Origin: Pyramidobacter sp. C12-8
GTDB taxonomy: Bacteria > Synergistota > Synergistia > Synergistales > Dethiosulfovibrionaceae
NCBI RefSeq assembly: GCF_002007215.1
Contig: NZ_MUHX01000002.1
Coordinates: forward strand, 1-64,000
Direction of reading: 5' to 3'
DNA: 64,000 nucleotides
Position numbers and translations under genes: made by a program. The notes beneath the pieces were generated by a model. The model saw only the letters and a list, made by a program, of their open reading frames with translations, was not told where the DNA came from and made no database searches. Of the stretch, positions 56,226-59,938 are shown piece by piece. The stretch's first letter is position 1. Every line of letters starts with the position of its first letter.

Positions 56226-56708
56226 ATGACCGATCCCGTTGAAAAAGTGCAAAAGGCTCTCGACGAACTTCACTACGAAGGGAGCATCATCCACAGCGAC
56301 GCCACCATCTTCACCGTCGAAGACGCTTCCAAAGCGATCGGCGTCACGCCGGGCGAGATCCTCAAGAGCCTGATCTTCATGGTCGACGGACAGCCCTGGC
56401 TCGTGCTCATGTCCGGTCCGAACAAAGTCCATTCGGGCAAGATCAAGCGGCTCAGCCAGGGACATCGCGTCACTATGGCTTCGCCCGACTACGTTTTCGA
56501 GAACTTCGGTTTCAGAATCGGCGGCGTGCCGCCCCTCGGCTATCCGCGGACGCTGCCCGCGCTGCTGGACGAGGATTTGTGGAATTTTTCCATTGTCTGG
56601 GCTGCGGCCGGCACCGACCACGCTTTCTTTCCCATCGCCCCGGAAACGCTGCGAGAATACACCCAGGGACAGAAAGCGGCCGTCAAGAAAGAGCCCCCTC
56701 AGCCGTGA
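56226..56708 (+). CDS. ybaK: YbaK/EbsC-family aminoacyl-tRNA deacylase
   Basis: 160 aa. 'KSLIFMVDGQPWLVLMSGPNKVHSGKIKRL' region (cited in parts: KSLIFMVDG, SGPNKVHSGK) and 'GGVPPLGYP' are the YbaK/ProX signatures, with the catalytic Lys and Gly loop. Hydrolyses mischarged Cys- or Ala-tRNA-Pro or related species. Translationally linked to the phosphomutase (10 nt), with no obvious functional link. Confidence 0.92.
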   Translation: MTDPVEKVQKALDELHYEGSIIHSDATIFTVEDASKAIGVTPGEILKSLIFMVDGQPWLVLMSGPNKVHSGKIKRLSQGHRVTMASPDYVFENFGFRIGGVPPLGYPRTLPALLDEDLWNFSIVWAAAGTDHAFFPIAPETLREYTQGQKAAVKKEPPQP

Positions 56709-56760
56709 TCTTCCGCCCCTTCTTCCATCCTGACGATGAAAGAACAGAAAGGAGCTTCCC

Positions 56761-57099
56761 ATGAAAACTCCGGCACTCAAGATCTATCGCGAACGTCCCA
56801 TTATGGGCTGCGGCTGAAGCACCGCCATCTACACCGAGAACGAGTTGAAACATTTTCCCGGTGCAGCCAACCGCGTCGCGGTTGGGCAGCTTTACATGAA
56901 GCTCAAAGAAGAGTATGGTCCCCGCCTCGACATCAACTTCTACGACCCGCGCTGTTTCGTATTTCTCTTCGACACGCTGCGCTATCGCCTGCGCGGCGAC
57001 GAAGTCACCTGGGTGCTGAACGGCAAGGTGATCTTCCGCGGCATTCCCGAGTGGGAAAACCTGAAAGACGCTATCGACGGCGTCCTTCCAGCCTCGTAG
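56761..57099 (+). CDS. candidate selenoprotein: small thioredoxin-like protein with in-frame UGA
   Basis: Reading the frame from ATG 56761 (AAAGGAG, 6 nt upstream) gives 18 codons, a TGA (56815-56817, codon 19), then 93 more to TAG (57097-57099): 112 aa in all if UGA is selenocysteine. The site reads C17-G18-U19-S-T, a redox-type Cys/Sec pair right after a first beta strand, and the remainder ('RYRLRGDEVTWVLNGKVIFR') fits a small thioredoxin/ArsD-like fold; it resembles the thioredoxin-like (seleno)protein group called SaoT, which I could not verify. A 6-bp stem GCACCG/CGGTGC (56819-56824 / 56859-56864) follows the UGA. Alternative: a nonsense mutation. Confidence 0.65.
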
Positions 57100-57108
57100 A
57101 TACAAGAC

Positions 57109-57152
57109 GAGACCGTCCCGGCCTGCAGCGGGCCGAGACGGTCTCTTTTTTC
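57109..57152 (+). terminator. terminator of the phosphomutase-ybaK-selenoprotein run
   Basis: GAGACCGTC / GACGGTCTC outer stem with inner CCCGGCC/GGGCCG pairing, then TTTTTT. Confidence 0.85.
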
Positions 57153-57214: not shown

Positions 57215-58537
57215 TCAGTCGTGATAGCGCAGATCGATGCGCAGGATCCGCCGCGGACGGCCTGCCGCGGCCTGCGGCTCCTTTCCCAGCACGGTCAGAT
57301 AGCGAAACTCCTCCAGCTTCTGCAGCAGCCTGTTCATGCTGCGCAGCGACAGCGAGCAGTAACGCGCCAGTTCGGACGAAGTGACCGTGTCGGTCCGGTA
57401 TTGCAGAAGGGCCTGCTCGATCTTGCTCAGCGATCTGATCCCGATCCCGGTCTGCACGGAGATCTGGCGCAGATTTTCGTTGAACAGCCCTTTCGCGTCG
57501 GGATCGCCCGACAGCGAGATCGGGCCGAAAAAATGCCCTCTCTCGTCAAGACCGTAACAGCAAGATGCCGGGCTTCTTCGGCTTCTCTGCTGCGCCTTGT
57601 CGGCCGCGTAACGGGCCTCCCGGGCCGTATACCCGATGCCGATGCCCGCCGAAATCTTCTCCAGACAGGGATTTTGAAAGGGCATGTGCAGCAGACTGAG
57701 ACCGGTGAAGTTCCCCGTCTCGGCCATCAGCGTCCTCAGATCGCACGCCACGTAATAGTCAGCCATGTCCGTCTGAAACACGGCGCCGCCGAGATGCTGC
57801 GCAAAATAGCAGACGGACTCGCCGATCTGCGCCTGCAGTCTCAGCGTCTGCAGCTCGCTGTACATGTGCATCTCGCGGCTCAGCTGGAATTCCGGCCGGA
57901 TCACGACCACCGCGGGAAGGTTTCTTTCGGCAACGGTGATCTGATGTCTCAGCAGCAAAAACTGGAGCTTCTGCTGCAGAAGAGAAAAATTCGGACCGGT
58001 CTTGATCGAAGGGATCCCCATCGCCCGAAGTTTTTCGTAGATCTTCTCCAGTCCCGTCACGCACAGATCCGCCCTGCCGGTGCGGTAATTTTCCGCGTGA
58101 TATTGAACGACCTGCTGAAAATAATCTTCGGCCATGATGTCAAAGCGGGTATTGTAAAGCCGCACGCTTTCTTCGGTCCCCTTCAGCTCTTCGCGTATCT
58201 CTTCGATGATTTCATCGTCAAAACCGTCCATGCTGACGTTCTGGATCCTGTTTTTGTATTTCAGTCCCGCCTTGACGAGCGCGCACATGGTCGACAGCAT
58301 GTTGCGCGGCATAAAATCCCACGGGACCGCGGGTTGGAGCAGAGACGTCGCGTACAGATAAGGCGTCTGTCCCGTGAAAAGCAGAGCGTCGCATTTCCTC
58401 TCGTTTTCTTCGATCAGTTTTATCGCCTCGTGAAAATCCCGATACGCCAGAGGCATCAGCTGTACGGAAAACCGAGCCGATCTTTTCTGCAGGATTCTCA
58501 GACTTGTCTCGGGGCCAATCACGCCAATGATCATCAT
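57215..58537 (-). CDS. multidomain transcriptional regulator (sensor + GGDEF-like + winged helix)
   Basis: 440 aa from ATG 58537 (GAGGGAACG upstream). An N-terminal PrpR-N-like sensor region ('IGVIGPETSLRILQKRS', 'LLFTGQTPYLYATSLLQPAV'), a middle part with 'ISAGIGIGYTAREARYAADKAQ' typical of GGDEF-like/GTP-cyclohydrolase III folds without a full GGDEF loop, and a C-terminal winged helix ('TVTSSELARYCSLSLRSMNRLLQKLEEF', cited in parts). I recognise no named protein. Divergent from the transporter at 58733, which it probably activates. Confidence 0.75.
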   Translation of the reverse strand: MMIIGVIGPETSLRILQKRSARFSVQLMPLAYRDFHEAIKLIEENERKCDALLFTGQTPYLYATSLLQPAVPWDFMPRNMLSTMCALVKAGLKYKNRIQNVSMDGFDDEIIEEIREELKGTEESVRLYNTRFDIMAEDYFQQVVQYHAENYRTGRADLCVTGLEKIYEKLRAMGIPSIKTGPNFSLLQQKLQFLLLRHQITVAERNLPAVVVIRPEFQLSREMHMYSELQTLRLQAQIGESVCYFAQHLGGAVFQTDMADYYVACDLRTLMAETGNFTGLSLLHMPFQNPCLEKISAGIGIGYTAREARYAADKAQQRSRRSPASCCYGLDERGHFFGPISLSGDPDAKGLFNENLRQISVQTGIGIRSLSKIEQALLQYRTDTVTSSELARYCSLSLRSMNRLLQKLEEFRYLTVLGKEPQAAAGRPRRILRIDLRYHD

Positions 58538-58612
58538 CGTTCCCTCGCGATAGAGAAATCTTGCCCGTTCCGCATGGTTCGGACATGCCGCTTCATTGTA
58601 CGCGGCCATTGC

Positions 58613-58662: not shown

Positions 58663-58732
58663 GAAATAAGCAGTGAATTTATTTTTACAAACGAATTCAT
58701 TGCGCTTCATTCCCGAAAAGGAGGTTCTCTTC

Positions 58733-59938
58733 ATGTATTGGGCTCTTCTCGTCGTGTTCGGCATCTTCGCGCTGGGAGATTACCTTGGCGTCGTCTCGAA
58801 GGCTCGCCTCTCCTCCGTGTTCGTCGCCCTGATGTGCTTTCTGGTGCTGTTTCTGAGCGGCGTTCTGCCTCAGGATCTAATTAAGATCGCCGGACTCACC
58901 GATTTGGCTAAAATGGCGACGCCGTTTCTCGTTTTCTCCATGGGCTCGTCCATCAACCTGTCGCAGATGCGCAGGGAATGGAAAGTCGTCGTCATGTCGC
59001 TGGCGGCGATGCTGGTCGCCGTCGTCTCCGTACTTGCCGTCGCGCCGCTGATCGGCATGCAGAGCGCTCTGGTGTGCATTCCTATCGTCAACGGCGGCAT
59101 CGTCGCCACGCAGATCATGACCGCCGCCGCTCTCGAAAAAGGATTCGGCCTGGCCGCCGCGCTCGGCACGCTGGTATTCGCCGTGCAGAAATTCGTCGGC
59201 ACCATCCCCGCCTCGCACTTCGGCCTCAAGGAAGCGAAGCTGCTGGTCAGCGACTACCGCGAGAAAAAGGCCCAGGGCATCGATCTTTTAAAGGCCGCTC
59301 AGCCGCAGGGCCACCAGGAAACGGACGCTCAACCGAAGAAAGTTCCGTTCTGCGTCCGGTACGACAAATATTACACCGTCTACATGACGCTCGGCATCGC
59401 AGCCGCAGTCGCCTACGTCAGCAGCCTGATCGCCAGGGTCACGGGCATCGCCGCTTCGATCTGGTGCCTGCTTTTCGGCATGCTGCTCAATCAGCTGCAT
59501 CTGATCCCTTCGCGTATCCTCGACCGGGGAAAGTCGAGCGGGCTGTTCATGACGGCGACGTTTTGCAGTTTGATCCCCGCCCTGGCGAAGATCGAGCTCT
59601 CCGACATGGGCAGCATGGCCGTCAGTCTGGCGCTGGTATTCGGGGCGGTGCTGATCGGTACTTTCCTGCTGCTCTACGTCCTGCCGCTGTGGAAGTTCAT
59701 CGGCTCGCGCAACATGGTGGTCGGCATCGCCATGTCGCAGCTGCTGGGATTCCCCGCCACGTTCCTGATCGTCAACGAAGTGGCGACGGCCGTCGCGCGG
59801 AACGACGACGAGAAAAACTACGTCGTCGAGAAGCTGACGCCGGCCTTCGTCGTGTCGGGCTTCGTCTCCGTGACGACGTTCTCGATCATCATGGCGGGGA
59901 TTTTCGCCTCTTTCCTGCATCTGTTCCCGGCGCCGTAA
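58733..59938 (+). CDS. multi-pass membrane transporter, sodium/glutamate-symporter-like
   Basis: 401 aa from ATG 58733 (AAAGGAGG ~8 nt upstream; the earlier in-frame ATG at 58673 lacks one). About ten transmembrane helices in two halves separated by a soluble loop (residues ~175-215, Q/K-rich). 'VNGGIVATQIMTAAALEKGFG' and 'QLLGFPATFLIVNEVATAVA' resemble repeat motifs of two-domain ion-coupled carriers such as GltS, but the match is not decisive. Next to gamma-glutamyltransferase, so glutamate or a gamma-glutamyl compound is a reasonable substrate guess. Confidence 0.7.
   Translation: MYWALLVVFGIFALGDYLGVVSKARLSSVFVALMCFLVLFLSGVLPQDLIKIAGLTDLAKMATPFLVFSMGSSINLSQMRREWKVVVMSLAAMLVAVVSVLAVAPLIGMQSALVCIPIVNGGIVATQIMTAAALEKGFGLAAALGTLVFAVQKFVGTIPASHFGLKEAKLLVSDYREKKAQGIDLLKAAQPQGHQETDAQPKKVPFCVRYDKYYTVYMTLGIAAAVAYVSSLIARVTGIAASIWCLLFGMLLNQLHLIPSRILDRGKSSGLFMTATFCSLIPALAKIELSDMGSMAVSLALVFGAVLIGTFLLLYVLPLWKFIGSRNMVVGIAMSQLLGFPATFLIVNEVATAVARNDDEKNYVVEKLTPAFVVSGFVSVTTFSIIMAGIFASFLHLFPAP

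Follow-up and report, generated by a model that had tools for sequence, protein, structure and literature searches.

A very likely thioredoxin-fold selenoprotein in Pyramidobacter sp. C12-8 and its relatives in the Synergistota

Introduction

A 2026 review distinguished 119 prokaryotic selenoprotein families and subfamilies, many of them with NCBIfam or Pfam models (PMC13188914); recognition of the Synergistetes as rich in selenoproteins dates from 2016 (PMC5029168). Several described groups resemble the gene reported here. Thioredoxin_3 (PF13192) and the MJ0307/MTH895-type small thioredoxins (TIGR00411, TIGR00412), including the Brachyspira selenoproteins Sec.1 and Sec.2 (PMC5330540), have the fold that we predict for it and carry a CxxC active site. 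SaoT (NF040730), of an organometal system, is likewise a small thioredoxin-like selenoprotein, with a UxxC motif according to a table in the review (PMC13188914). Another thioredoxin-like selenoprotein is characterised by a HUIPC motif (NF047660), which is also of the UxxC form.

We analysed the first 64,000 nucleotides of contig NZ_MUHX01000002.1 of Pyramidobacter sp. C12-8 (the window), in which a short reading frame is interrupted by a single TGA. The frame very likely encodes a selenoprotein with a thioredoxin fold. Its family resembles Thioredoxin_3 and the MJ0307/MTH895-type proteins in the C-terminal half (strand-turn-strand, GxP and last helix) and gives weak HMM matches to them (E 0.003-0.2), all far below cut-off, but has CxU/CU or a lone Cys where they have CxxC and, unlike them, conserves a DPR motif and Trp84. 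The UxxC of SaoT is absent from the window protein, and the HUIPC/UxxC motif of NF047660 from the family. Routine annotation cuts such genes short or overlooks them, since it reads their UGA as a stop. An apparently new family is thereby added to the selenoproteins of a phylum rich in them, and the repeated exchanges of selenocysteine and cysteine among its relatives offer a handy natural comparison of what selenium contributes to a small redox protein.

Results

Homologues and the TGA column

The initial annotation described a ribosome-binding site and an ATG at 56761 followed by 18 codons, a TGA (56815-56817), 93 sense codons and a TAG (57097-57099), and all of these elements are present in the sequence (Table 1). 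Searches of Synergistota genomes yielded 76 further matches to the gene. A match is present in 40 of 101 related genomes and in 64 of the 188 genomes of the phylum; named records among them belong to Synergistales, Acetomicrobium and Thermovirga. Together with the window gene they formed an alignment of 77 rows, two of which are fragments that fall short of the TGA column. Among the 75 genes that reach it, the window gene included, 40 have TGA, 29 have Cys (TGC or TGT) and six have another residue (Gly or Phe), while TAA and TAG are absent. Of the 75 genes, 69 thus show the TGA/Cys interchange at this single column, the conservation that had been proposed for checking at codon 19. On a tree built without this column, the state (Sec or other) changed at least five times, and well-supported branches force two of these changes.

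Table 1. Features of the selenoprotein locus in the window
Feature	Coordinates	Strand	Basis or remark
Upstream gene, aminoacyl-tRNA editing domain (YbaK-like)	56226..56708	+	PF04073, E 1.2e-25; neighbour table
Shine-Dalgarno AAAGGAG	56748..56754	+	6 nt before ATG; sequence
Very likely selenoprotein gene, 112 residues, Sec as residue 19	56761..57099	+	Homologues, purifying selection, AF2 thioredoxin fold
Cys17-Gly18-Sec19 motif (TGA codon 56815-56817), Sec predicted	56809..56817	+	TGA or Cys at the homologous column
Candidate bacterial SECIS hairpin, CACCG(A)GAA, 14-nt loop CGAGTTGAAACATT, TTC(C)CGGTG	56832..56863	+	Congener pairing, folding
Cys65 (DPRC motif), a possible partner for Sec19	56953..56955	+	Counts among full-length members
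Likely intrinsic terminator, GAGACCGTC...GACGGTCTC then TTTTTT	57109..57151	+	Sequence, terminator scan

Nine pairwise comparisons gave dN/dS values of about 0.11-0.28 downstream of the TGA, and the sequence on both sides of it is under purifying selection. Because homologues keep the protein on either side of the TGA and dN/dS downstream is low, the case for a coding frame goes far beyond chance. By default a TGA terminates translation, and the initial annotation had allowed for a simple nonsense mutation; decay of this gene does occur in some lineages, as truncated remnants in two Acetomicrobium-group genomes (L166 in G029, L167 in G048) and a frame-broken one elsewhere (L168 in G050) represent lineage-specific losses. 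That the TGA of the window gene is a true stop followed by decaying sequence is nevertheless extremely improbable, given that 40 genes retain the same TGA, that none has TAA or TAG, that the alternative is Cys, and that the downstream codons evolve under the constraint just described.

An 84-aa open reading frame in the ORF list could instead reflect two separate genes, with translation restarting at TTG 56845. We regard this as highly improbable: related genes conserve the stretch that precedes the TGA, and the Cys forms read without interruption through the Sec column and into the rest of the protein. Because they run straight through, they fix the full-length protein and disfavour a separate downstream gene. 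Codes in which UGA specifies Trp exist in some bacteria, and a variant code or plain read-through would place Trp or another ordinary residue at codon 19. This reading has hardly any probability in our view, since 29 genes have Cys and none has Trp at the homologous position, the conserved Trp84 of the window gene is encoded by TGG, and the genome carries selenocysteine machinery together with two canonical selenoprotein genes. On these comparisons, the TGA is almost certainly a selenocysteine codon and not a nonsense mutation.

Selenocysteine machinery

The initial annotation had made its reading depend on selenocysteine machinery in the genome, and the source assembly (2.67 Mb, 182 contigs, 99% complete) contains all of the components that were sought. 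These are selA (553.5 bits), an adjoining selB that scores over its cut-off, selD, and a tRNA-Sec (66.3 bits) that ARAGORN calls as SeC with anticodon tca. Both selD and grdA (glycine reductase A) have one in-frame TGA, in the contexts SSGU-AAK and CFVU, which match the known Sec sites of the two proteins. Since selA, selB, selD, tRNA-Sec and the TGA-bearing selD and grdA are all present, the organism very probably inserts selenocysteine at UGA. In genome counts made by eye from two listings, selA occurs in 36 of the 39 genomes with a TGA form of the gene; the other three (G052, G028 and G169) are 65-86% complete. Of the two findings that the initial annotation had named as refuting a selenoprotein, a genome lacking the machinery and a column lacking Cys/Sec conservation, neither turned up when looked for.

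Candidate SECIS element

A 6-bp stem, GCACCG (56819-56824) with CGGTGC (56859-56864), had been proposed early on as the SECIS element. It can pair in the window, whose species is the only one with full pairing, but has one mismatch in two congeners (G003 and G001) and two in two others (G002 and G004). Broken in four of five congeners, it was rejected as a SECIS. Its 3′ arm can alternatively pair with CACCG at 56832-56836, and the resulting hairpin, with outer arms 56832-56836 and 56859-56863, is the better candidate. Its four outer pairs are kept in five of five congeners. The inner part varies: in G002 an A-C mismatch is replaced by C-G and a G-C pair by C-G, and in G004, alone among the five, the inner stem is broken unless a bulge is allowed. 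Bacterial SECIS elements are expected to have a G in the first two loop bases, and there is one within the first two loop bases of this hairpin.

The 54 nt after the TGA have no folding advantage over shuffled sequence (z -0.79), whereas the segment 56829-56864 reaches -8.4 kcal/mol with z -2.22, a modest stability. Across the family, comparison with shuffles shows stronger folding after the site in Sec forms, with a mean z of -1.39, than in Cys forms, where it is -0.52 (p 0.0009, with relatedness ignored). A 9-bp hairpin occurs at about the same distance in other lineages, with 72% of its pairing kept in Sec forms and 63% in Cys forms, so that coding constraint explains part of the conservation. 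The element is a candidate, recognised only by folding and limited conservation. An Rfam scan of 54-60 kb of the window gave no meaningful match.

Predicted fold and possible function

An AF2 model built from 29 homologues (pLDDT 88.7, pTM 0.82) has the element order E H H E H E E H, and its best Foldseek matches are thioredoxins (E 2.5e-4, TM 0.56), so that a thioredoxin fold can be assigned to the modelled protein with confidence, as the initial annotation had supposed. A PDB profile search returned only RNase P matches sharing a helix, which were judged spurious against this result. Cys-Gly directly precedes the TGA, and the model places Sec19 after the first strand, in agreement with the Cys-Gly-Sec motif originally described there; it lies in the active-site loop, a part modelled with lower confidence (block means 69-79). 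In 71 full-length members the near-invariant residues are Trp84 (70), Pro96 (70), Gly94 (69) and Pro63 (65), followed by Arg64 (58), Glu11 (57) and Asp62 (57). At the column corresponding to the cis-Pro that precedes the third strand in the thioredoxin fold, 49 of the 71 have Pro and the window protein has Val. The sequence up to Sec is GCGU in Sec forms of the window's genus and SVCU/SACU or RSGU in those elsewhere.

We propose that ribosomes would insert selenocysteine at the UGA of codon 19, yielding a 112-residue protein, with decoding by the cell's SelA, SelB, SelD and tRNA-Sec and the hairpin just after the UGA, a step that comparison strongly supports. Sec19 takes the place of the active site in the modelled thioredoxin fold and would act as the conserved nucleophile, for which related lineages have Cys. 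One paralogous subfamily (L088 in G080:C5, L089 in G060:C15, L152 and L153) counts against this proposal in having Gly at the Sec/Cys column; its Cys lies two residues later (GGC), which may reflect a shift of the active site or of the alignment.

The fold, the conserved Sec or Cys and the nearby cysteines point, with a modest balance in its favour, to a small selenol/thiol redox protein. Sec19 would most likely cycle as a selenol attacking a disulfide, a peroxide or a similar electrophile, and would then be resolved as a selenenylsulfide with Cys17 of the Cys-Gly-Sec motif or Cys65 of the DPRC motif, one of which is probably its partner. Occurrence among homologues suggests Cys65: 24 of the 37 full-length Sec forms have DPRC, against none of the 28 full-length Cys forms, striking counts that amount to about two to five independent contrasts on the tree, too few to separate from phylogeny.

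The main rival to a redox function is a selenoprotein in which Sec19 and the neighbouring cysteines bind a metal or metalloid, in an ArsD-like or CU-motif-like manner, with no thiol redox activity. In favour of such binding, Cys and Sec are adjacent in many relatives (ACU, SVCU), which also have another Cys in DPRC. Against it, these additional cysteines are mostly missing from the Cys forms, and the neighbourhood comparison found no conserved metal-resistance or transport genes. We consider metal binding rather unlikely and favour the redox protein.

Relation to known families

When 29 members were searched against Pfam and NCBIfam, no family came near its cut-off. The nearest models were TIGR00411 (E 0.003; 0.0029 before rounding), PF13192 (E 0.031) and NF047660 (three weak matches, the best at E 0.038, below cut-off), and the window protein itself scores 12.4 bits against TIGR00411, whose cut-off is 92.75. 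Similarity to SaoT, suggested in the initial annotation, did not hold up: none of the 29 members matched any NCBIfam SaoT model (NF040730) at E <= 1, and the window protein has CGU-STA, in which the third residue after Sec is other than Cys, so that UxxC is absent. Membership of SaoT was rejected on both grounds.

Nothing in the 2026 review (PMC13188914) matches the family, which may be mentioned in the supplementary selenoproteome tables or in Haft's publications from 2023 and 2025. Because no model of the families listed in the review matches, this appears to be a family of thioredoxin-like selenoproteins that the review does not describe. In this analysis it was located only in the phylum Synergistota. 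A pattern scan of genome contigs found 13 loci, all within Synergistales or below; it used two short patterns and is insensitive (the window's own group was also missed), so that other phyla remain compatible with it. No homologue was found in viral contigs. A bolder reading, which we hold to be doubtful, is that an undescribed family confined to Synergistota combines Sec19, a vicinal or CxU Cys and the separate DPRC Cys in a chemistry (a selenenylsulfide relay or metalloid binding) unrepresented among known thioredoxin-fold selenoproteins.

Genomic context and further observations

The YbaK-like gene lies directly upstream in all five congeneric species compared; it scores 49.9 bits against the YbaK equivalog cut-off of 153 and is thus below it. 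The neighbourhood comparison found no neighbours conserved outside the genus, the genes beside the family being unrelated in other lineages, so that neighbours give no hint to a substrate or redox partner. A scan of the window for other open reading frames with a single read-through TGA gave no convincing candidate; it was insensitive, missing the gene at 56761-57099 as well because it also read through upstream TGAs. Two long ORFs of the window gave no Pfam or NCBIfam match at 1e-5; they encode 464 aa (57215-58609, minus strand) and 421 aa (58673-59938, plus strand; hydrophobic and transporter-like). In one homologue (L016/L069, G019:C2:56605-56910) another in-frame TGA stands in place of the codon for Trp84, a residue that is otherwise invariant; this is more likely a nonsense mutation or an assembly error than a second Sec.
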